Of a DNA stretch of 64,000 nucleotides, positions 29,733-40,627 are shown piece after piece. Every line of letters starts with the position of its first letter. The first letter of the stretch is position 1. This DNA comes from Chitinophaga pinensis. Its GTDB lineage: Bacteria > Bacteroidota > Bacteroidia > Flavobacteriales_D > Crocinitomicaceae. A model generated the notes under the pieces. It saw only the letters and a list, made by a program, of their open reading frames with translations. It searched no databases and was not told the origin of the DNA. The DNA is taken from positions 1-64,000 of the forward strand of contig CAMDNE010000001.1 in NCBI GenBank assembly GCA_945902745.1. Reading direction: 5' to 3'. The position numbers and the translations under genes were made by a program.

Positions 29733-31832
29733 TTATTCAATAATCATTCTTGATGTGTAATTTTTTCCTTCGAAAAAGATATTGAATAAATAAACACCTT
29801 TAGACAAAGAATTTTGATTCATTTGCCACGTATTTAAACCTGTAGAATGATTGATTTCTTCTGAATAAACCACTTGACCAACTATATTTAGAATTTCAGC
29901 TTTTAACGAACCAGTGTAATTAGTTTCAAATTCAATATTGAATTTACCATTATTTGGGTTTGGAACAATTTTAATTGATTTTTTGAAAGGAATATTTTCT
30001 CCAATTCCAGCACAAGACAAAACCACTGCTTCCACAGGAACTAATGCACTTGAACATGTGCTGTTTGAAGTCAAGATTTCCCAATCATAGAAGAAGTAAT
30101 AATAAGACGCTCCAGCTGAAGCCCCATTTATTGAAACAATGTTTGGAATTTCATATGGATAAGTCGCACTGTTGTTATTTCTGTACAAACCTGTTGTTGT
30201 AATATTTTTTCCAACAAGTCTCAAATTTGAGTCAATTGGAACATTGAAATTCAATGTTGCACGACTAGATCCAGCAGGAACATTTACTGTTGTTGTAGCT
30301 AAAACTTGCGCAGTTTCATCCTGTAATTGAATCGTTACATTTCCAGCAGATTGAGAATACAACAAAACCGACTCTAATGTGAAATTGGTGTAACTGTTAA
30401 ATACTTCGTATTGCTCAGAAGTCACATATCCACCACCACCAATACCATTTGTATATGGTTCTGCGTGAATTGAATCAAGGTATGAATCTGTATTTTGAAC
30501 AAAATAAGTTGTAGATGTTGTTAAAATAGGCGTAGTAAAAGTGTTTCCATTTCCAACATAATTATTATTACTATCATACCATGTAATATCTCCACTTGAA
30601 GTTGCATTTAAAACAACCGAACCTGAAATACATACTGTATCTCCCATTGTAACAGGTGCATTAGGTACAACGTTGTTAACAATAAATGGTAGTGATGTGC
30701 TAATTCCACAGTAATTTGTTACCTCACATGTATATGAATCAGGTTGTGTTACTGTAATTGACTGAGTTGTTTCACCATTAGACCAAAGGAAAGAACTTCC
30801 TGCTGTAGCAGTTAATGTTATTGATTGACCCTCACACAAGTTATTAGAATTGTTTGAAGAAATCTCAGGCAGAGCCGATGATCCCGAAGGCAATTGCTGC
30901 GTTAACGTAACAGGTACGGCGGTCCAATTGTTGTCTTCATTTTCTTCTAGAAAAATATTGTTTTTGTCAACTTCTAAAACTATGTAGTAATCACCATTAC
31001 ACGTATTTGCAGGAACATTAATCCACATTCCATCTAAATGTTTACCATAAACATCTGTCCAACCAGAAGAAATACCTTGCTCAACAACCGAACAGTTATA
31101 ATTTCCTCCGCCTAGATTCCAATTTGGAAAATCAACATTATGCAGCGTGTTTCCTCCTAAATAAACAGTGTTATTATCTCTACAATGTCCGTCATAAGTA
31201 CTGCCTGTTGACCCACATTGTCCATAGTCCATTAAACAAAAACCAATTTTTGCTCCTGTTCCTACAATTGGCCAATTTAAAGGATTTGGATCTGTTGTTT
31301 GAATTCGTAAAGTCATAACTGCCCAATCATCAACGTGATTATGACCATGAGAAGGGTGGTAGGTAACACTTCCAGCATAGTGATCCTCGTAACTCATTGC
31401 ATTCCCATTTTTATGGTAAATTCTTTGCGTAATAAGTTGTTTTGGGTTTAAATAACCATTCGGACAAGTAAATGAACCAGTAGCTGATACATTAAACACT
31501 GTGTCATTTCCGCAAAGAAAAGTTCTTTTTCCATTGTCATCTTGACCTCTCACAGTAAATGAGCCATGACCAATATTAGGTGTAGATCCAGTAACTCTCA
31601 ATCTTCCATCATCAGAACCTTGTCCACCATAATTAGTCCCAGCTCCAGTTTGAGGATATTCAGTATACCCGCCATTACTGATGCCTTTCCAAGATGCCGT
31701 AATATCTGGAAATAAAAGGCAATTTGCTGTTCCGTCTTCACAAAGACACGATGTTGCATTAGTTGTGGTACATTGTGAGTTAGCTTGATATGATATGAAG
31801 CTTAAAAAAGTTAGTAGTAGTATTTTTCTCAT
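29733..31832 (-). CDS. Secreted lysyl-oxidase-like protein with T9SS sorting domain
   Basis: This 699-residue exported protein has a signal peptide (1-19, QANSQ). Residues about 40-310 match the lysyl oxidase fold: copper-binding HxHxH (HGHNH, H162/H164/H166), a GAKIGFCLMD segment where K195 aligns with the cofactor Lys of LOX, GISSGWTDVYGKHLDG where Y262 aligns with the cofactor Tyr region, and a closing EENEDNNW segment. Lysyl oxidases deaminate peptidyl lysine or other amines using copper and lysyl tyrosylquinone. An Ig-like domain (about 325-400), a beta-rich domain and a type A sorting tail (KIVPNPNNGKF, then LSKGVYLFNIFF) follow. Many LOX-fold bacterial proteins remain untested. Confidence 0.75.
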   Translation of the reverse strand: MRKILLLTFLSFISYQANSQCTTTNATSCLCEDGTANCLLFPDITASWKGISNGGYTEYPQTGAGTNYGGQGSDDGRLRVTGSTPNIGHGSFTVRGQDDNGKRTFLCGNDTVFNVSATGSFTCPNGYLNPKQLITQRIYHKNGNAMSYEDHYAGSVTYHPSHGHNHVDDWAVMTLRIQTTDPNPLNWPIVGTGAKIGFCLMDYGQCGSTGSTYDGHCRDNNTVYLGGNTLHNVDFPNWNLGGGNYNCSVVEQGISSGWTDVYGKHLDGMWINVPANTCNGDYYIVLEVDKNNIFLEENEDNNWTAVPVTLTQQLPSGSSALPEISSNNSNNLCEGQSITLTATAGSSFLWSNGETTQSITVTQPDSYTCEVTNYCGISTSLPFIVNNVVPNAPVTMGDTVCISGSVVLNATSSGDITWYDSNNNYVGNGNTFTTPILTTSTTYFVQNTDSYLDSIHAEPYTNGIGGGGYVTSEQYEVFNSYTNFTLESVLLYSQSAGNVTIQLQDETAQVLATTTVNVPAGSSRATLNFNVPIDSNLRLVGKNITTTGLYRNNNSATYPYEIPNIVSINGASAGASYYYFFYDWEILTSNSTCSSALVPVEAVVLSCAGIGENIPFKKSIKIVPNPNNGKFNIEFETNYTGSLKAEILNIVGQVVYSEEINHSTGLNTWQMNQNSLSKGVYLFNIFFEGKNYTSRMIIE

Positions 31833-31963: not shown

Positions 31964-32623
31964 ATGACAAGATTAGAAATTGAGGAATCGACTATTCAGA
32001 TTATTAATGATTCATTAAGTTATTTTTTGGAAAAAGAATTAATTGAAGAAATAATAAAAATTGGACAATTAAAAAATGTTTCTACCGATGAGTTAATACT
32101 TAATGTAGGTGATACCATGAAGATGATTCCCATAGTTTTAAGTGGCTCTGTGAAGGTTTCCCGTGAAAATGAAAATGGCGATGAGCTATTGTTGTATTAT
32201 ATTGAAGGTGGAGATACGTGCGCAATGACATTGCAATGTTGTGTTCGTCAGTCAGCGAGTGAAATAAAAGCAACAGCAATGGAACCATCACTATTGTTGA
32301 TGATTCCTATTCAAATGATGGAAAATTGGATGGGTAAATACAAATCTTGGAGGGAATATATTTTACAAAGTTATCATACCCGATTAATAGAATTAATGGA
32401 AGCTGTGGATGCAATAGCATTCATGCGCTTGGATGAACGTTTGAAGAAATACCTTATTGATCAAGCTAAGTTATTAGGTAGTTTGGAAATCAATCATACA
32501 CATCAGCAAATTGCAGAAGATTTGCATTCGTCAAGAGTTGTTATTTCACGCTTATTGAAGCAATTAGAAATTAAAGGAGAAATCAAATTACATAGAAACA
32601 AAATTATTCTTGGGTCTATCTAA
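31964..32623 (+). CDS. Crp/Fnr family regulator with Cys motif in the sensor domain
   Basis: This 219-residue regulator has a cyclic-nucleotide-binding-like barrel (about 25-135) and a winged helix with HTHQQIAEDLHSSRVVISRL (about 168-187). It lacks the N-terminal Cys of FNR. Instead it has C86, C92 and C93 in GDTCAMTLQCC within the barrel, a pattern I recognise from a Bacteroidota Crp/Fnr subgroup of unknown ligand. It also has the IAFMRLDERLKKYL dimerisation-helix signature. A near -7 element (TACTTTTA, about 31954) and the paired GATAATATCT sites lie upstream. The next genes in the same direction form the phosphodiesterase-sulfotransferase cluster; regulation of that cluster is inference. 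Confidence 0.82.
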   Translation: MTRLEIEESTIQIINDSLSYFLEKELIEEIIKIGQLKNVSTDELILNVGDTMKMIPIVLSGSVKVSRENENGDELLLYYIEGGDTCAMTLQCCVRQSASEIKATAMEPSLLLMIPIQMMENWMGKYKSWREYILQSYHTRLIELMEAVDAIAFMRLDERLKKYLIDQAKLLGSLEINHTHQQIAEDLHSSRVVISRLLKQLEIKGEIKLHRNKIILGSI

Positions 32624-32709: not shown

Positions 32710-32862
32710 ATGAAAGCTAGTAAAACAGAAGAAGAATTTAAATTAACAGCACAAGGATCAATTGGAATATTAGCACTTGGATCCGTTGGAATTCGAAAGT
32801 GGCGAGAAGTTGTTAAAGAGAAACAGAAGTCTAAAAAAGCCAAATCTAAAAAAGATGAGTAA
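32710..32862 (+). CDS. Small Gly-rich protein, family member 1 (SP1)
   Basis: This 50-codon gene starts at ATG 32710. Its TAA overlaps the ATG of the following phosphodiesterase gene by 8 bases (ATGAGTAA), which suggests translational coupling. The product has a hydrophobic, Gly-rich core (GSIGILALGSVGIRKWRE, residues 16-33) followed by a Lys-rich tail. The core matches that of the 49-residue protein at 38081 (GTLGLLALGNIGIRAWKK), so two genes in this cluster encode a shared small family. I do not recognise the family. It has no Cys or Tyr and no signal-peptide cleavage site; the core is short for a membrane helix. Confidence 0.65.
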   Translation: MKASKTEEEFKLTAQGSIGILALGSVGIRKWREVVKEKQKSKKAKSKKDE

Positions 32863-35398
32863 CCCACCAACAAAAAAAATACTTTTGATAGGTTGGGATG
32901 CAGCTGATTGGAAGGTCATTGACCCATTAATCGCTCAAGGTAAAATGCCTGCTTTAAAATCTCTTATTCAACGAGGTGTTTATGGTAAATTACAAACCTT
33001 AGACCCTCCGCTTTCTCCCATGTTATGGACAAGTATAGCAACTGGTTTTCGTGCCGATAAACATGGTATTGGTGGTTTTATTGAACCTAATCCAGATGGA
33101 ACAGGTTTACGTCCTGTCACATCAACTTCTAGAAAAGTAAAAGCAATATGGAATATCTTGCATTATGAAGGCAAGAAAAGCAACATAGTAGGTTGGTGGC
33201 CAAGTAATCCAGCGGAGCCTATTAATGGTGTAATGGTATCAAACCTCTATCAAGTTGCGAATGCGAAAATCGAAGAGGAATGGGTGATGAGTAAAGGCAC
33301 TGTTCACCCTGATTCAATGATTGATGAAATGAAAGAATGGCGTGTTCATCCAGGTGAAATAACATTGGCAATGACTATTCCATTTATTCCAAATCTAATT
33401 GACGATTTAGAATTAAGAAAAGAAAAAAGAACCGCAGGTGTTGTTAAAGTAATCGCCAATGCCGCAAGTATTCATGCTGCTTCTACACATTTAATTGAAA
33501 ATACGGAGTGGGATTTTATGGCAGTTTATCATGATGCAATTGACCATTTTAGCCACTTATCGATGAAGTTCCATCCCCCTCATAGACCTGAAATTGATAG
33601 TAAAGATTATGAAAATTACAATGGAGTAGTTGAAGCAGGTTATCGTTTTCACGATATGATGTTGGAAAGAACTTTGGAATTGATTGATGATAATACTACC
33701 GTAATCATTATTTCTGATCATGGTTTTCATTCTGACCATCAGCGTCCTCTGAGTATTCCAAACGAACCATCAGGTCCTGCAATTGAGCACAGTCCTTATG
33801 GTGTAATGATCATGGCTGGTCCAGGAATAAAAAAAGGTGGCGAACGAATTAGTGGCGCATCAGTTTTAGATATTACTCCAACCTTGTTAGCTCTTTTTGG
33901 CTTGCCTGTCGGAAAGGACATGGAAGGGCGCGTTCTACAAGCTGTATTTGAAAAAAATGATGTGCCACAATATATCGAAAGTTGGGAAAAAATTGAGGGA
34001 GATTTTGGAATGCACCCATCAGATTTGCAAGAAGATCCATGGGAAGCAATGCAAGCTTTACAGCAATTAGTAGAATTAGGATATATTGATGAAATTGGGG
34101 ATGATAAATTACTTGCTGTCGATAAAGCAAAAAGAGAGAATCAGTATTATGTTGCTAGAAATTTAATTAATGGTGGAAAAATTGAAAAAGCAATTGAAAT
34201 TTTAGAAATAATTTTTGCTGAATCAAAAATTCTTCGGTATGGCCAACGATTGGCATTTGCCTATTTAACCGTTAATAAGTTGATTAAATGTCAAGAATTG
34301 ATTGACGAACTAAGGGAAGAGGAAAAGAAAATATTTATAACAAGGAAAAAAGATATTTTAGAAAAGAATCCAGCTGATCCATTTGGAAATCAAGAAATGG
34401 AGGAACCCATGTATTTGGAGTTTGTTGAAGGTTTATTGAATCTTCAAATTAACAAACCTAGAAAAGCATTGCCTATTTTAGAGCGGGTTCAAAAGAAAAA
34501 CCCAAATAACATTCAGGTTGCAGTAAATATTGGGAAGATTCACAATGTACATAAAAACTATCAAGCGGCAGAAAAACAATTTATCAAAGCACTTGCTATA
34601 GATGATCGAAATCCCCGAGCCCATCATGGTTTGGGTTTAGCATTTTTAAGGAGTAATAAAATAGAACTGGCAATTGACGAATTTTTATTAGCAATAGAAG
34701 AGAATTTTTTCATGCCAAATGTTCATTATCATTTGGGCGAAGCATTTTTCAAAGCAGAATATTTTCAGCAAGCATTAGAAGCATTTGAAGTTGCGGTGCG
34801 GTTGTCACCTGGAATGACGAAAGCGCATAAATGGTTAGTAGAAATTTACAGTAAGCATATAGTGAATAATACTGCTAAAGCTGAACATGAATTATTTTTA
34901 AAAGACAATATTAAAGGGGAGCTGAATATTATAACAGGATTGATTGGCTCCGGTTTTGAAGAAATATTGGAAGAATTGGTGAATAACGGAATTGGTGTTG
35001 AACAAAATAACAGCGCAAAAAATCTTTGGGATAAATTCCTGCTTCCTAAGACAAAAAAATTACACTTAGAATCGGATTGGTTAAAAGAAATAGGTAGCAA
35101 TTTGTTATATGTACAACCTCAATTCTTAAGTTTTCTACCTCCAAATTTCAATTATAAACTTATAGTCGTGAAAAGAGATATGAAAGAAGTGATTGAAATT
35201 GAACTTAAGATAATGGGTAAAAGAATTAAAAAGGAAACGTTACCAATAGTCCATTTTCATAAGAATGAAAAAAATCTTTTCAAAATTGATAGTTGGATTG
35301 AATCACAACCTAATATTGAAATATCAATTAACGATTTTACTGAATTTAATTCGAATTCTAAGGAACAAATTGATCAACTAATAAATTTCCTTGGGTAA
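32855..35398 (+). CDS. Alkaline-phosphatase-superfamily phosphodiesterase with TPRs and a degenerate sulfotransferase-like C-terminus
   Basis: The start at 32855 (847 residues, MSNPPTKKILLIGWD) is preferred because it overlaps SP1 in ATGAGTAA; an in-frame ATG at 32777 would lie inside SP1. Residues about 8-400 are a type I phosphodiesterase / nucleotide pyrophosphatase domain: metal Asp in IGWDAADW (D15), nucleophile region PPLSPMLWTSIATG (51-64), DHGFHSDHQ (about 286-294) and EHSPYGVMIM. TPR-type helices fill about 515-665. Residues about 685-847 align with the neighbouring sulfotransferase, but the PAPS loop GLPRSGTS is GLIGSGFE, so that part is probably not catalytic. There is no signal peptide, so it is likely cytosolic. 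The substrate is unknown. Confidence 0.8.
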   Translation: MSNPPTKKILLIGWDAADWKVIDPLIAQGKMPALKSLIQRGVYGKLQTLDPPLSPMLWTSIATGFRADKHGIGGFIEPNPDGTGLRPVTSTSRKVKAIWNILHYEGKKSNIVGWWPSNPAEPINGVMVSNLYQVANAKIEEEWVMSKGTVHPDSMIDEMKEWRVHPGEITLAMTIPFIPNLIDDLELRKEKRTAGVVKVIANAASIHAASTHLIENTEWDFMAVYHDAIDHFSHLSMKFHPPHRPEIDSKDYENYNGVVEAGYRFHDMMLERTLELIDDNTTVIIISDHGFHSDHQRPLSIPNEPSGPAIEHSPYGVMIMAGPGIKKGGERISGASVLDITPTLLALFGLPVGKDMEGRVLQAVFEKNDVPQYIESWEKIEGDFGMHPSDLQEDPWEAMQALQQLVELGYIDEIGDDKLLAVDKAKRENQYYVARNLINGGKIEKAIEILEIIFAESKILRYGQRLAFAYLTVNKLIKCQELIDELREEEKKIFITRKKDILEKNPADPFGNQEMEEPMYLEFVEGLLNLQINKPRKALPILERVQKKNPNNIQVAVNIGKIHNVHKNYQAAEKQFIKALAIDDRNPRAHHGLGLAFLRSNKIELAIDEFLLAIEENFFMPNVHYHLGEAFFKAEYFQQALEAFEVAVRLSPGMTKAHKWLVEIYSKHIVNNTAKAEHELFLKDNIKGELNIITGLIGSGFEEILEELVNNGIGVEQNNSAKNLWDKFLLPKTKKLHLESDWLKEIGSNLLYVQPQFLSFLPPNFNYKLIVVKRDMKEVIEIELKIMGKRIKKETLPIVHFHKNEKNLFKIDSWIESQPNIEISINDFTEFNSNSKEQIDQLINFLG

Positions 35399-35448
35399 TA
35401 AGGATAAAATAATGCACTTTTAACTTTAATTTATTTAAACAATTGAAA

Positions 35449-36327
35449 ATGAAAAGAGTAATTACTATAAATGAATCAAGACTAGCTCGGTTTTCTGCTG
35501 TTGCTGGAGCTGTTCTTGCATCAAGTGCTGTAAATTCGCAGATTGTTTATACCAATGTTGATCCTGATATAATCATTGATACAGCTAGTGGTCAATATAA
35601 CTTGGATTTTAATGCCGATGCGATGATTGATGTTACTTTAAATGTTATGAATGTAATGGAATTTACCTCTATAAGCACTTCTACTTCAGCTGTATATGCG
35701 GGTTCTCTTGCAGTAGTTACTCCTGGAATAGGGGCAGGTGTAGTTAGTGCTATCCTAGGCTCTAGTTCATCTTCTTATGTTACTGCAATGAATAATGGTG
35801 ATTTAATTGGAACTGCAGCTGTATTTGGTGGAAGTTCAATGGCTGCTTTAGCTGTTGATATTACGATAACTTCAAGCTCATCCTCGTATCAAATTTCTAA
35901 TGGTGCATTCTTGGGTGTTACTGATAAATTTTTAGGGGTTAAATTCTTAATCGGTACAAATACACATTATGGTTGGGCTCGTTTAGACGTTTCAGCGAAT
36001 GCAGATACAATTCGATTGAAAGATTATGCGTATAATGTTGCAGCAGATTCACCAATTCTTGCAGGTCAAACCCTAGGACTTGATGCTATATCTGTTGAAA
36101 ATAAAGTAACGATTAAAACAACATTAGATAATGCAACAATTAATGTTACACCAGATTTAATTGGTGGCCGTGTTGTGATGTTTAATATAGCTGGACAAGA
36201 AATCAAAGTAGTTCAAATTACAGATGTTAATACCGAAATTCTTTATGAAGGAGTAGAAACAGGGATTTATACTATTACTGCTCAATTTGATGGTGGAATG
36301 GTAAATAAAAAGGTCTATATAAAATAG
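35449..36327 (+). CDS. Secreted protein A of a tandem pair with T9SS tail
   Basis: The chosen ATG at 35449 gives 292 residues; an in-frame TTG two codons upstream is less likely. The N-terminus ITINESRLARFSAVAGAVLA is an unusual, strongly conserved signal-peptide region shared with the next gene, with cleavage likely after VNSQ. IVYTNVDPD follows, then a DxNxDxxxD calcium-loop-like sequence (DFNADAMID), a Ser-rich middle and a conserved HYGWARLDVS element (about 180-189). The C-terminus is a type A sorting domain (LIGGRVVMFNIAGQE, then GIYTITAQF, then KKVYIK). Function is unknown; 36330-36390 holds its terminator. Confidence 0.78.
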   Translation: MKRVITINESRLARFSAVAGAVLASSAVNSQIVYTNVDPDIIIDTASGQYNLDFNADAMIDVTLNVMNVMEFTSISTSTSAVYAGSLAVVTPGIGAGVVSAILGSSSSSYVTAMNNGDLIGTAAVFGGSSMAALAVDITITSSSSSYQISNGAFLGVTDKFLGVKFLIGTNTHYGWARLDVSANADTIRLKDYAYNVAADSPILAGQTLGLDAISVENKVTIKTTLDNATINVTPDLIGGRVVMFNIAGQEIKVVQITDVNTEILYEGVETGIYTITAQFDGGMVNKKVYIK

Positions 36328-36349
36328 AAATAATTACACGTAAAGTTTA

Positions 36350-36385
36350 CAAAAAGCGATATCAATTTAGATTTCGCTTTTTTTG
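36350..36385 (+). terminator. Terminator after secreted protein A
   Basis: AAAAGCGA and TCGCTTTT flank a short loop and are followed by a T run. It separates gene A from the promoter of gene B. Confidence 0.8.
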
Positions 36386-36451
36386 TTTTCAGCTCTTAAG
36401 TCTTTTCAGTTCAACTGTTTATATAGAACAAATGAACGTTTAAATAAAAAT

Positions 36452-36483
36452 TTTGGAATTAATTTAAAATAAACTTACATTTG
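36452..36483 (+). promoter_or_regulatory. Sigma-A promoter of secreted protein B
   Basis: TTTG (36452-36455), 20 bases, then TACATTTG (36476-36483): a full match to the Bacteroidota -33/-7 pattern. The -7 element overlaps the alternative TTG start at 36481, so translation must begin at ATG 36511. Confidence 0.75.
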
Positions 36484-36510
36484 ATTCCTAACTTATCTAA
36501 AACTAAAAGG

Positions 36511-37401
36511 ATGAATAAAAAAATTACTATAAATGAGTCTAAATTAGCTCGGTTTTCTGCTGTTGCAGGAGCTGTTTTAGCAACTGGTGCCGTAAATTCT
36601 CAAATTGTATATACGGATGTTAATCCAGATGTTCTTGTTGACGCAATTAGTGGCCCTTATGATTTAGATTTTAATAGTGATGCTGTTGTAGATGTAACAT
36701 TTGGAGTTCAAGCAATTGTAAATCAAACTGGTTCTCAATCAGGAATTTCTTTCACCTTTAATGGTTCTGTTGCGACAGTTTTTCCTGCTGCTGGAAATGG
36801 TGTGCAACAAATTTTAGGAAGTGGTAGTAGCTCAACTATGGCTGTTACGCCATTAAATAATGGAGATTTGATTAGTTCTGGAGCTGTTTTTGGTGGTTCT
36901 GTAAGTGGCAGTCTTTTAGGAATTGCGGGAATTGCCGATATTCCATTATTATCAATGACTTATCCAATAAGTCAAGGACCATTCCTTGGGGTTTCAGATA
37001 AATTTCTGGGTGTTAAATTCATGGTTGGTGCAAATACGCATTATGGATGGGCTCGTTTAAATGTTACTTCAGGTGCAGATAAAATTCTTATAAAGGATTA
37101 TGCTTACAATCAAAATGCTGATTTACCGATTCTTGCAGGAATGATGGTTGGATTAGATGATGTTGCTGTTGATCAAAAAGTAACTATAAAAACTACTTTA
37201 AATAACGCTACCATTAATGTTACTCCAGATTTAATTGGAGGTCGAATTGCACTGCTTAATATGGCTGGGCAAGAGGTGAAAATTGTCTCAATTAATGATG
37301 TTAACACTGAAATTCAATTAGAAGGAATAGATACTGGAATTTATATAATTTCAGCTCAATTTGAAAAAGGTAATGTTACTAAAAAAGTATATGTGAAATA
37401 A
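36511..37401 (+). CDS. Secreted protein B, paralogue of protein A, with T9SS tail
   Basis: This 296-residue paralogue of the preceding gene has the start at 36511 supported by the promoter position. ITINESKLARFSAVAGAVLA is nearly identical to protein A, and cleavage is likely after VNSQ, followed by IVYTDVNPD. A calcium-loop-like DFNSDAVVD, the sequence HYGWARLNVT (about 189-198) and the type A sorting domain (LIGGRIALLNMAGQE, GIYIISAQF, KKVYVK) repeat the same architecture. The middle (about 70-160) has diverged most. The pair looks like a recent duplication kept with its own promoter and terminator. Confidence 0.78.
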   Translation: MNKKITINESKLARFSAVAGAVLATGAVNSQIVYTDVNPDVLVDAISGPYDLDFNSDAVVDVTFGVQAIVNQTGSQSGISFTFNGSVATVFPAAGNGVQQILGSGSSSTMAVTPLNNGDLISSGAVFGGSVSGSLLGIAGIADIPLLSMTYPISQGPFLGVSDKFLGVKFMVGANTHYGWARLNVTSGADKILIKDYAYNQNADLPILAGMMVGLDDVAVDQKVTIKTTLNNATINVTPDLIGGRIALLNMAGQEVKIVSINDVNTEIQLEGIDTGIYIISAQFEKGNVTKKVYVK

Positions 37402-37420
37402 TATTTTTTTTCTTTAATAG

Positions 37421-37455
37421 GAAAAGCGAAGTTAGTAATGACTTCGCTTTTTTTA
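37421..37455 (+). terminator. Terminator after secreted protein B
   Basis: AAAGCGAAGT pairs with ACTTCGCTTT around a short loop and a T run follows. This is a strong hairpin. Confidence 0.85.
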
Positions 37456-37480
37456 TGAATGAAAATGGAATCTATTTTAA

Positions 37481-37516
37481 TTTGACCTTCCAACGAATCA
37501 ATTTTGATTAAATTTG
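37481..37516 (+). promoter_or_regulatory. Sigma-A promoter of the sulfotransferase gene
   Basis: TTTG at 37481-37484 and TAAATTTG at 37509-37516 are separated by 24 bases. The -7 element lies within the reading frame that would begin at TTG 37504, so ATG 37534 is the start and the leader is about ten bases. Confidence 0.65.
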
Positions 37517-37533
37517 TGGAAAATCTAATAATA

Positions 37534-38094
37534 ATGTCTGAAATAATTGTAATAACTGGATTACCGCGATCTGGAACATCTTTGATGATGCAAATAATAG
37601 ATAAAACTGATATTCCAGTTCTGTCAGATGGAAAAAGAAATAAAGATATTAGTAATCCAGAAGGATATTTTGAACTCGAGGCAGTAAAAGGAATCGTTGT
37701 AAATAATTCATTCTTAAATGATGCAATAGGAAAAGCAATTAAAATTGTTACCCCGCTCCCAATCTATTTAGATCTCAAACACAAATATAAAGTGATTTTT
37801 ATGAGAAGAGAAATGGATGAGATATTGAAATCTCAGGAAAAAATGCTTCAAAAAGATCAATTAAGTGAAAGAGAAAAATTTAAAACAATATATGAATTTC
37901 ATTTAAAAAAAACATATCGTTTTTTAACTGAAAATAAAATTTCTTTCATTGATATCAACTATAACGAGCTCATGAGAAATCCAGAGGATGAGTTAACGAA
38001 ACTTATTTCCTTTTGCAATATCACTAGTGAAATTCAAACATTAGCGCAAGTTGTTAAACCAGAATTATATAGAAATAGAAATGAAGTCAACTAA
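37534..38094 (+). CDS. Sulfotransferase-family protein
   Basis: This 186-residue cytosolic protein begins MSEIIVITGLPRSGTS. The GLPRSGTS P-loop (residues 9-16) binds the 5'-phosphosulfate of PAPS, and VIFMRREMDEILKSQ (about 88-102) is the 3'-phosphate-binding region. PVLSDGKRNKDISNPEGYFE (near 29-48) is characteristic of a prokaryotic sulfotransferase branch. The acceptor is unknown. The tail of the phosphodiesterase-TPR protein upstream is a degenerate copy of this protein. Its 3' end overlaps SP2 by 14 bases. No PAPS-synthesis genes are in the window. Confidence 0.82.
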   Translation: MSEIIVITGLPRSGTSLMMQIIDKTDIPVLSDGKRNKDISNPEGYFELEAVKGIVVNNSFLNDAIGKAIKIVTPLPIYLDLKHKYKVIFMRREMDEILKSQEKMLQKDQLSEREKFKTIYEFHLKKTYRFLTENKISFIDINYNELMRNPEDELTKLISFCNITSEIQTLAQVVKPELYRNRNEVN

Positions 38095-38230
38095 AAAAAC
38101 AAAAGTTGTTTCAATTATTTTAGACGGTAAGCCTTTTGAAGTTCCTCCAGGAGGAACTCTAGGTTTGTTGGCTTTGGGAAATATTGGGATTAGAGCTTGG
38201 AAAAAGTCAAAAGCAGAATGGTTGAAATAA
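38081..38230 (+). CDS. Small Gly-rich protein, family member 2 (SP2)
   Basis: This 49-codon gene begins at ATG 38081 inside the end of the sulfotransferase gene, in another frame, which suggests coupled translation. The product reads KVVSIILDGKPFEVPPGG, then a core GTLGLLALGNIGIRAWKK (residues 25-42), then KSKAEWLK. Core positions match those of SP1 at 32710: G-[ST]-[LI]-G-[LI]-L-A-L-G-[NS]-[IV]-G-I-R-x-W-[KR]. SP2 has an extra beta-like start (SIILDGKPFEV). No known family is recognised. Confidence 0.65.
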   Translation: MKSTKKTKVVSIILDGKPFEVPPGGTLGLLALGNIGIRAWKKSKAEWLK

Positions 38231-38327
38231 AAGGAGAAATTTACATCCAGCAAAAATAAAAGACAGAATTTAACAATCCAATGTTCAATTAATTTTGTTT
38301 TATTTTTTTTAAACTTTTTATTTAACG

Positions 38328-38335
38328 TATATTTG
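38328..38335 (+). promoter_or_regulatory. Putative -7 element of the secreted protein at 38365
   Basis: TATATTTG matches TAnnTTTG and lies 30 bases before the start codon. No exact -33 element is seen at the standard distance. Confidence 0.45.
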
Positions 38336-38364
38336 AAAACGTTTAACTTAATATTAATTAGAAT

Positions 38365-39261
38365 ATGAAAAAAATTTTACTTTCAATTGGAGTTGTTTTA
38401 ACTTCTTTAGTATCTAACGCACAAGTTGATACATTAACAGAGTTCTTTACAGGAACACCAACAATTTATGGAGCTGCTCTTGCTGATGGTGGTGGTTATG
38501 TTACTGGAAACAATGGTTATGGTGATATCGCAAAAGGAATGCGTTTTAACAATGCAAATGGAATAGTTAATGGTGGATCTATTTCAAATGTATTACTTTG
38601 GGCACCAGTTATCACTAACAATGGTGGTTCTTTTACAGTAAAAGTTCACGAATATCTTTCAGCTACTGCTTTAGGAGCTGTTTTAGGAAGTGTAACTATT
38701 CCTTTGAGTGCGGTTGATACTACTCTTGCAACTGGTTATTCTATTGCAGGTGGACTTCCATACAACGTGAATGCAACTTTCTCGGCACCAATTACTATTC
38801 CTGCATCTAAGGACATCGTAGTTTTAGTTTATCTACCAACTGTTGTTGGAGATACTATTGCATTAGTTTCTAACACTTCAGGTGATTGGGCAAATGCTGC
38901 AACTCACACGTTTGAAGTTTGGAATGATAATACAGTTCATGATTTCACATCTGCATGGGGTGGTGGTGTAGATGTTGCTATGGCAATTTTCCCTGTTGTA
39001 AACTTTGTTCTTGGAGTTGATGAAAACGCAATTACAACTTCAGTTTACCCTAATCCTGCTAATGATGTATTGAACTTTAACTTATCTGTTAATGCTACTT
39101 CTGTTTCTATCATTGGAATGGATGGAAAAGTTATCTCTACTGAGGTAATCAACGCTAATACAGCTGCAGTAAATGTTTCTAACTTAGTTTCAGGAGTTTA
39201 CTTCTATGAAATCGCTACTGAAAACGGTTCTTTAGTTCGTAACACTTTCGTTAAAAAATAA
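38365..39261 (+). CDS. Secreted protein with T9SS type A sorting domain
   Basis: This 298-residue exported protein has a signal peptide (1-20, SNAQ) and an unrecognised beta-rich body. A region at about 50-210 carries sequences such as GSFTVKVHEYLS and VLVYLPTVVGD that fit a jelly-roll or lectin-like fold, but this is a guess. The C-terminal domain is a clear type A sorting signal (TTSVYPNPANDVL, then SIIGMDGKVIS, then LVSGVYFYEIAT, then FVKK). It has its own promoter and a strong terminator. It lacks the ITINES-type N-terminus of the two secreted proteins upstream. Confidence 0.78.
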   Translation: MKKILLSIGVVLTSLVSNAQVDTLTEFFTGTPTIYGAALADGGGYVTGNNGYGDIAKGMRFNNANGIVNGGSISNVLLWAPVITNNGGSFTVKVHEYLSATALGAVLGSVTIPLSAVDTTLATGYSIAGGLPYNVNATFSAPITIPASKDIVVLVYLPTVVGDTIALVSNTSGDWANAATHTFEVWNDNTVHDFTSAWGGGVDVAMAIFPVVNFVLGVDENAITTSVYPNPANDVLNFNLSVNATSVSIIGMDGKVISTEVINANTAAVNVSNLVSGVYFYEIATENGSLVRNTFVKK

Positions 39262-39280
39262 TTAAGATTCTCTTAATATG

Positions 39281-39311
39281 AACGGGGCTATTTTTAGTCC
39301 CGTTTTTTTTT
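39281..39311 (+). terminator. Terminator after the secreted protein at 38365
   Basis: AACGGGGCTA and TAGTCCCGTT pair (with a G-T wobble) around a TTTT loop and are followed by a run of T. Confidence 0.85.
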
Positions 39312-39376
39312 GCCTAATTATTTAATTTGAACCGGTTGAACTTGCTTCTTTGAAGCTTCTTCTTTATTTCAGGATA

Positions 39377-39406
39377 CAAAAAAGCCCCATTCAGTGAATG
39401 AGGCTA
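39377..39406 (-). terminator. Terminator of the aminotransferase gene
   Basis: On the minus strand AGCCTCATTC and GAATGGGGCT pair (with one G-T) around an ACT loop and are followed by TTTTTT. It lies 22 bases beyond the aminotransferase stop. Confidence 0.8.
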
Positions 39407-39427
39407 ATACTATTTTGTAGCATACAA

Positions 39428-40627
39428 TTACATTGTTCTGCCAGGATAAACTTTCAACGCTTCTTCTAAACATATTACTGCTTTGCGCAATGAGTCTTGA
39501 TTCAACACATAAGCAATTCTAGCTTCTTGCTGACCTGCACCTTTGGTTGAATAAAAACCATTCGCTGGTGCCATCATAACCGTTTGACCTTCAAATTCAA
39601 AGTCTTCCAATAACCACTGACAGAATTTCTCTGCATCGTCAACTGGGAATTTTGCCACACAATAAAATGCACCACTTGGTTTTGGACAAAATACTCCTGG
39701 AATTTTGTTTAATCCTTCGATCATGATGTTTCGACGTTGCACATATTCAGCCACAACATTATCAAAATAGGATTGTGGTGTGTTCAATGCTGCTTCTGAT
39801 GCAATTTGATCTATTGTTGGAGGAGAAAGTCGCGCCTGACCAAATTTCAATGCCGCAGCCATGATTTCTTTATTCTTCGTGATTAATGCACCGATTCGAG
39901 CGCCACACATTGAATAACGTTTTGAAACAGAATCAATCATGATGACATTTTCTTCTAAACCATCTAAGTTCATCACAGAAAATGGAATAGCTCCATCATA
40001 ACAGAATTCTCTGTAAACTTCATCAGCGAAAAGAATTAAATCATGCTTTAATACAATAGCACGTAATTGTTCTAGTTCTTCTTTAGAATATAAGTATCCA
40101 GTAGGATTTCCAGGATTACAAATGACAATTGCTTTCGTTTTTGAAGTGATTTTTTTCTCAATTTCTTCTACTGGCGGTAAAGCAAATCCTGTTTCAATTG
40201 TTGATGTTACCGGAACAACATTCAAACCAGCCATTACTGCAAACCCATTGTAATTTGCATAAAATGGTTCTGGAATAATTACTTCATCACCAGGATTACA
40301 GGTAACCATAAATCCGAAAATCAAAGCCTCAGAACCTCCTGTTGTAATTAAAATATCCTCAGGATTAACATTGATTCCAGTTTTTTGATAATATGCCGAC
40401 AAACCATTTCTGTAACTTTCAAATCCAGCTGAATGGCTGTATTCTATTACTTTTCGGTCCATGTTTTTAATTGCATTTAAAGCAACTTCAGGAGTTTCAA
40501 TATCTGGTTGACCAATATTTAAATGGTATACAATTTTTCCTTTAGCCTTTGCTATTTCAGCATAAGGAACCAATTTACGGATTGGTGAAGCAGGCATTTC
40601 TATTGCCTTTTGAGATAATTTTGGCAT
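39428..40627 (-). CDS. Class I/II pyridoxal-phosphate aminotransferase (aspartate aminotransferase-like)
   Basis: This 399-residue cytosolic fold-type I transaminase is likely to use aspartate/2-oxoglutarate or related amino acids. NPGNPTGYLYS (about 168-178) contains the substrate-binding Asn-Pro-x-Gly, ADEVYREFCY (about 202) the Asp that holds PLP nitrogen, and DSVSKRYSMCGARIG (about 232-246) the Schiff-base Lys. The N-terminal PASPIRKLVPYAEIAK is typical of the AspC-like group in Bacteroidota. Exact substrate cannot be told. The gene is monocistronic with its own terminator. Confidence 0.88.
   Translation of the reverse strand: MPKLSQKAIEMPASPIRKLVPYAEIAKAKGKIVYHLNIGQPDIETPEVALNAIKNMDRKVIEYSHSAGFESYRNGLSAYYQKTGINVNPEDILITTGGSEALIFGFMVTCNPGDEVIIPEPFYANYNGFAVMAGLNVVPVTSTIETGFALPPVEEIEKKITSKTKAIVICNPGNPTGYLYSKEELEQLRAIVLKHDLILFADEVYREFCYDGAIPFSVMNLDGLEENVIMIDSVSKRYSMCGARIGALITKNKEIMAAALKFGQARLSPPTIDQIASEAALNTPQSYFDNVVAEYVQRRNIMIEGLNKIPGVFCPKPSGAFYCVAKFPVDDAEKFCQWLLEDFEFEGQTVMMAPANGFYSTKGAGQQEARIAYVLNQDSLRKAVICLEEALKVYPGRTM

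Follow-up and report, generated by a model that had tools for sequence, protein, structure and literature searches.

A 64,000-nucleotide stretch of Chitinophaga pinensis DNA (assembly GCA_945902745.1, contig CAMDNE010000001.1, positions 1 to 64,000; hereafter the window) carries a cluster of genes for a small protein (SP), a phosphodiesterase with TPRs and a C-terminal sulfotransferase domain (PDE), and secreted proteins (SEC) with tails of the type IX secretion system (T9SS) kind. The same genes form a cassette that recurs in Bacteroidota, and the linkage of SP, PDE-sulfotransferase and SEC is well supported. The reading that we prefer, and that we consider a little short of probable, is that SP, PDE and the sulfotransferase (ST) could constitute a cytosolic module devoted to modifying the type IX-type cargo encoded beside them, its precursor or its surface anchor, before or during export. 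This proposal builds on gene linkage, co-occurrence, conserved active sites, the replacement of a fused ST by a free one, and an N-terminal SEC motif that tracks PDE.

A recurring SP-PDE-SEC unit in Bacteroidota

A scan with the PDE alignment returned 469 relatives, and the loci of the best 80 of these 469 were analyzed. Apart from one contig filed as Hyphomicrobiales, which is possibly misbinned, these 80 carry Bacteroidota or Chlorobiota names, with PDE loci in Crocinitomicaceae, Vicingaceae, Chitinophagales, Saprospiraceae, Cytophagales and Marinifilum and in one Chlorobiota record. The recurring order, in genomes of the same genus and phylum-wide, was SP, then PDE(-TPR-ST), then SEC. An SP gene lay 5' of PDE in 73 of the 85 PDE genes for which 400 nt or more of upstream sequence was available (no more than 100 nt away in 66, and overlapping or abutting in 52), and a SEC gene followed within 400 nt of the PDE 3' end in 69 of the 86 with at least 700 nt of downstream sequence. 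This order persisted across orders and classes, at 40% to 45% PDE identity. Among 60 relatives, SP was present in 14 of the 15 genomes with PDE and in 0 of the 45 without it, and the single PDE-positive genome lacking SP (G055) has a PDE that is interrupted by a contig end. In G022, SP is joined to the N-terminus of PDE in a single open reading frame (ORF), and as many as four SEC genes can stand in tandem (L096). The initial annotation had taken the cluster for a linked system without a known label, and had asked whether other genomes keep these genes adjacent; the idea survived this test, since gene order was conserved in other Bacteroidota and SP accompanied PDE throughout. When plasmids were searched with PDE, only distant archaeal proteins of the alkaline-phosphatase family were found, covering 13% to 34% of the query.

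The enzymes, the small protein and the secreted cargo

The PDE of the window (PDE1) contains a Phosphodiest domain (PF01663, 9.8e-26) in addition to its TPRs. The metal and nucleophile residues D15, T59, D230, H234, D288, H289 and H312 were kept in 60 of 60 aligned PDEs, residue 59 being Thr in 57 and Ser in 3. With this domain, a Thr nucleophile and Asp/His metal ligands, PDE is predicted to be an NPP-type enzyme. It shares the catalytic fold and all seven of these residues with the NPP branch of the alkaline phosphatase superfamily, from which it differs in being apparently cytosolic, in its fusion to TPR and sulfotransferase domains, and in having an SP partner. The TPR superhelix resembles those of the O-GlcNAc transferase (OGT) and SPINDLY; long TPR arrays typically bind protein or peptide. 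A sulfatase identity was considered and rejected: there is no C/S-x-P-x-R formylglycine nucleophile, and almost all members have the Thr in SPMLWTSIATG.

In most lineages, the C-terminal part of PDE is an intact sulfotransferase domain (GLPRSGTS), 37% identical to the stand-alone ST of the window. The claim that PDE1 itself ends in a degenerate copy proved correct: alignment of its C-terminus with the stand-alone ST confirmed the homology (hhalign probability 99.2, E 2.9e-19), and the 5'-phosphosulfate-binding (5'-PSB) loop is not intact, reading GLIGSGFEE instead of GLPRSGTSL. In the stand-alone ST, the 5'-PSB loop PRSGTS and the Arg and Ser of the 3'-phosphate-binding (3'-PB) motif (R92 and S100) are invariant in the A7 alignment, as predicted for a sulfotransferase that uses 3'-phosphoadenosine 5'-phosphosulfate (PAPS). 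A free ST accompanied a decayed PDE domain in 32 cases and an intact one in none (0). Where there was no free ST, the PDE domain was intact in 39 of 45 and decayed in 6 of 45; five of these six belong to two-unit loci, and L070 is a lone copy. The 39 include the first PDE of L025, whose loop is imperfect (GPARSGMS); in that locus, the second unit comes with a free ST. These counts are not independent trials, because they probably go back to one or few evolutionary events; nevertheless, their direction is clear and indicates that the stand-alone ST replaces the C-terminal domain of PDE, so that a locus would nearly always retain one working sulfotransferase. A profile match of ST to Gloeobacter Glr2806 in the PDB was set aside, as it spans only 51 residues and looks like chance.

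SP1 and SP2, the two small proteins of the window, belong to one family, as had been suspected: each came up in searches with the other or with the profile of the family. The family occurs as stand-alone proteins of 45 to 90 aa or as an N-terminal fusion to PDE, and follows the consensus [IV]PxEGSLGLLALGxVGLxAWRxxR, with G16, A22, G24, G27 and W31 invariant in the A2 alignment. The rate of nonsynonymous change (dN) was well below the synonymous rate (dS), in a comparison of few sequences of which several had saturated dS; this sign of purifying selection argues that SP1 and SP2 are genes rather than ORFs that arose by chance. Neither SP nor the body of SEC is covered by a model in Pfam or NCBIfam. 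The distant Bacteroidota genome G301 encodes an SP-like protein of 82 aa (L129:9148-9393, + strand), and no PDE, ST or SEC was found in the surrounding 18 kb.

SECA and SECB, the two secreted paralogues, had been credited with a conserved unusual N-terminus and T9SS tails. The N-terminus stood. The tails are atypical: they have the T9SS C-terminal domain (CTD) fold and lack the usual PNP motif, and both score below the Pfam cut-off (PF18962). By the T9SS Type A model TIGR04183, SECB passes (26.9 vs 23) and SECA falls below. In an AlphaFold model, the tail of SECB adopts the CTD fold, with the CTDs of RemA, NucA and mirolase as matches at Z of about 9 to 10 (9.6-9.9); searches with Foldseek/VIA gave matches essentially to this tail domain only, the body not having been run in isolation. 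Of a sample of 15 further T9SS cargos of this genome, 14 have PNP, and it is absent in 126 of the 129 SEC-family ORFs of PDE loci (3/129 have it). SECs share with T9SS type A cargo the CTD fold and the terminal GIY...KKVYVK strand, and differ from it by the PNP-less tail, the sub-threshold Pfam scores, the special N-terminus and the operon with enzymes. SECA and SECB are the only proteins of this genome that match the SEC body; about 78 further loci match in the tail alone. SEC-body homologues in genomes without PDE have ordinary signal peptides and, in 9 of 12, PNP.

The N-terminal signal reads [KR]Lxx[YF][ST]AxAG. A simple regular expression picked it up in 91 of the 129 linked SEC-family ORFs, and most of those missed carry it, by eye, in a variant spelling such as LKSYSAIAG. 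In 200 genomes of the family, a profile of the 30 N-terminal residues matched in 36 of 39 genomes with PDE and in 0 of 161 without (Fisher 1.4e-36, uncorrected for relatedness). Because the profile was built from linked SECs, this result shows the association of a gene subfamily with PDE, from which we infer recognition. The motif persists in a clade that has no SP, and hence tracks PDE/ST rather than SP. YSIRK-type signal sequences, which mark a subset of surface proteins in Firmicutes (PMC1569441), are likewise short, conserved and placed just before a hydrophobic stretch; the SEC motif differs from them in sequence and phylum and is bound to the PDE cassette. Longer proteins of about 400 to 1175 aa with extra domains are encoded near PDE in L080, L085, L088, L095, L104 and L114; like SEC, they have the N-terminal motif, a YTDxxPD-like start and a tail without PNP.

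Possible working of the cassette and competing explanations

In the proposed modification module, SEC proteins would be synthesized with the dedicated N-terminal signal, and the PDE-TPR protein would bind them, or a shared precursor, in the cytosol, while the SP helix would tether or stabilize PDE at the inner membrane. Sulfate from PAPS would be added by the sulfotransferase, whether part of PDE or a separate protein as in the window, and the PDE domain would break, transfer or edit a phosphodiester-linked group on the same substrate. SEC would then be exported by Sec and displayed by means of its atypical T9SS-type tail. PAPS is cytosolic, and PDE and ST, read directly, have no apparent signal peptide at their start; therefore, any action on SEC would precede export, the only stage at which the N-terminal motif is exposed. 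A more specific form of this proposal, possible and in our view rather unlikely, has the N-terminal signal read by a membrane-tethered PDE-TPR-ST, with a sulfate or phosphodiester tag deciding display via the PNP-less tail; we are similarly hesitant about the free-standing PEP-CTERM-like helix that would serve it as the tether.

A related precedent is RaxST/RaxX, a cytosolic bacterial protein or peptide sulfotransferase of the PAPS type that is encoded beside its secreted substrate. The cassette likewise pairs an apparently cytosolic PAPS-type sulfotransferase with a gene for a secreted protein. Unlike RaxST/RaxX, it has no RaxX-like Tyr peptide, it adds NPP and TPR domains, and its cargo is a T9SS-type protein of about 290 aa. 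A RaxST/RaxX-type system was rejected, as SP has neither a conserved Tyr nor a signal or leader peptide.

Several observations weigh against the modification module. A clade (L059-L071), L083 and L117 retain PDE without SP, which is absent genome-wide where tested, so SP is not indispensable; L059-L071 and L083 keep the SEC motif and L117 does not. In an AlphaFold model of the natural SP-PDE fusion, the SP helix had a pLDDT of 31-49 and no confident docking on PDE. Since SECs with the motif form a subfamily, its link with PDE may come from common descent of the operon and not from recognition. SEC genes outside the PDE loci of PDE-positive genomes are mixed, three in G055 with the motif and one each in G014 and G023 without it. 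Low hydrophobicity of the signal peptide separates linked SECs from homologues in genomes without PDE; it does not distinguish them from the ordinary cargo in this genome and was accordingly dropped as a marker of delayed export. Finally, the substrate, the chemistry, the tethering and the order of steps are what we infer.

The initial annotation, whose overall interpretation is partly supported, had suggested that the cluster might modify, or control, a lipid, glycan or protein of the cell surface, and each of these is possible. A lipid or glycan would be the product if the two enzymes synthesize or edit a surface molecule, sulfated and/or phosphodiester-linked, that SECs bind or become attached to without being substrates themselves, an explanation that we take seriously and, on balance, doubt. 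NPP-type enzymes and sulfotransferases commonly use small molecules, lipids and sugars. Genes for a fatty-acid hydroxylase (11 loci) and CotH (17 loci) recur near the cassette, and Porphyromonas T9SS cargo is attached to a surface glycolipid (PMC7468200). However, no glycosyltransferase or flippase group was seen to recur beside the cassette, and a lipid or glycan substrate leaves unexplained why the part of SEC that tracks PDE should be its N-terminus, which the mature protein is expected to lack. It is improbable that PDE and ST instead handle PAPS, 3'-phosphoadenosine 5'-phosphate (PAP) or another nucleotide, for turnover or signaling, with SEC as the regulated output of a Crp/Fnr-linked operon. 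The PDE catalytic fold is indeed closest to the NPP/ENPP nucleotide phosphodiesterases (ENPP1), and an orthologue group of the Crp/Fnr gene recurs 5' of the cassette, in 15 loci. Nucleotide handling does not, however, account for a dedicated SEC family, for the fusion of SP with PDE or for the fusion of ST with PDE via a long TPR array.

SP itself could be the substrate, either as a PEP-CTERM-like sorting tail or as a small sulfated peptide of the RaxX type, which we regard as very unlikely. PEP-CTERM tails are sorted by exosortase (EpsH) and have been described previously (PMC1569441); the SP core resembles their hydrophobic segment and basic residues. The profile matches among SP members were weak, to PFE-CTERM in 22 of 52 (best 2.6e-4) and to PEP-CTERM in 13 of 52 (best 0.0093); in the window SP2 reached 16.2 bits, short of the PFE-CTERM cut-off of 24, and SP1 gave no such match. 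In contrast to PEP-CTERM proteins, SP is free-standing or fused N-terminally, has P-x-x-G in place of PEP, and shows no signal or leader peptide when the sequence is read directly. No conserved Tyr was found in the family alignment, and SP is joined to PDE in G022. No exosortase (PF09721) was found in this genome or in the genus; among the 60 relatives, 9 had one above the cut-off, in a pattern unrelated to the presence of PDE. The median KD19 of SP, 1.06, is too weak for a clear transmembrane helix. Thus SP departs from PEP-CTERM proteins in its position and in lacking a signal peptide, a PEP motif and an accompanying exosortase, and is not classed with them; we rejected it as an exosortase substrate and see in it at most a short membrane-associated helix. 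That the genes are neighbors only by chance or common descent, without shared function, is scarcely credible: DUF983 and lysyl-oxidase-like cargo genes do flank the cassette by synteny in close relatives, but the linkage counts, the persistence of SP-PDE-SEC order across orders and classes, the complete SP-PDE co-occurrence wherever testable in the 60 relatives and the SEC N-terminal profile already contradict it.

What is new is apparently the cassette and not its domains, which belong to known superfamilies; taken together, with a signal and a cargo family of their own, the parts correspond to no system that we could name. A limited literature search found no paper on the cassette, on COG3379 links or on T9SS together with a sulfotransferase; each part is small or generically named, which is why the cassette would have been overlooked. 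If the modification module is real, a major phylum would have a dedicated system for surface-protein modification or sorting, with its own signal, enzymes and cargo, and the question becomes how a phosphodiesterase and a sulfotransferase act on exported cargo. The origin of PEP-CTERM tails is a further question on which a helix of this kind, free-standing and unaccompanied by exosortase, has a bearing.

The locus in the window and its surroundings

The six cluster genes were confirmed as ORFs in one direction (Table 1), together with the overlaps described for SP1 with PDE1 (8 nt, ATGAGTAA) and for ST with SP2 (14 nt). The cluster had been read as a duplication of an enzyme and small-protein unit, [PDE+SP1] and [ST+SP2]. 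This reading is not borne out: the unit is [SP+PDE(-ST)+SEC], and the partner of SP2 is a lost PDE2. In the closest relative, G021, which is 97% identical over the locus, PDE2 directly follows SP2, and a third SEC gene is present. The blastn match between the window and G021 stops at 38240 and restarts at 39435; between these ends G021 has PDE2 and SEC3 (3.46 kb), in place of which the window has an unrelated T9SS cargo gene (1.2 kb). Because the order ST-SP2-PDE2 is also found in G011, G014, G017, G019 and G022, loss of PDE2 and SEC3 from the present genome is the simpler reading. The SP2 orthologue in G021 has 58 aa, and the SP2 of the window is without the last nine residues; with PDE2 and the third SEC gone, it is therefore a shortened remnant. 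Synonymous divergence from G021 is 0.03 in ST and rises abruptly to 0.48 in SP2, which suggests that the replacement segment arrived by recombination, with the joint inside SP2.

Table 1. Features of the cassette locus (positions in the window).
Feature	Position	Strand	Evidence
Crp/Fnr-type regulator	31964..32623	+	cNMP_binding 5.4e-9, HTH_Crp_2 1e-7
SP1, 50 aa, core GSIGILALGSVGIRKW, Lys-rich C-terminus	32710..32862	+	ORF; SP family
PDE1 (PDE-TPR), 847 aa: NPP-like phosphodiesterase, TPR superhelix, degenerate sulfotransferase	32855..35398	+	Pfam, conserved residues, fold
Degenerate sulfotransferase domain of PDE1 C-terminus, PRSGTS loop lost	34913..35398	+	hhalign
SECA: N-terminal ESRLARFSAVAGAVL motif, YGW/DYAY body domain, atypical T9SS-type tail	35449..36327	+	A4/A5/A6 family
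SECB, paralogue of SECA	36511..37401	+	As SECA; AlphaFold model, tail resembling T9SS CTD structures
Stand-alone ST, 186 aa, PRSGTS loop intact	37534..38094	+	Sulfotransfer_3 (PF13469) 1.4e-11
SP2, 49 aa, shortened remnant of an SP with missing PDE2 partner	38081..38230	+	G021 orthologue
Replacement segment, holding an unrelated T9SS cargo gene (38365-39261)	38240..39435		blastn vs G021

The Crp/Fnr gene lies just upstream of the cassette, as had been noted, and its product is a possible regulator of it. Promoter scans of the locus gave a signal no better than chance. Hairpins with GCGA/TCGC stems and T runs were seen by eye 3' of SECA (36350-36386) and SECB (37418-37455), which a terminator scan with a loop limit of 8 did not list; they suggest the transcripts SP1-PDE-SECA, SECB and ST-SP2. 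On the opposite strand, 5' of the cassette, 29733-31832 (-) encodes a T9SS cargo protein that contains a lysyl-oxidase domain (PF01186, 4.9e-7) and whose relatives flank the cassette in 13 loci. Among the genes 3' of the cassette in other genomes are those for a CotH-kinase/LTD protein with a T9SS tail (L064:10429-13461 and 16 related loci) and for the fatty-acid hydroxylase (L107:11383-12282 and 10 related loci).

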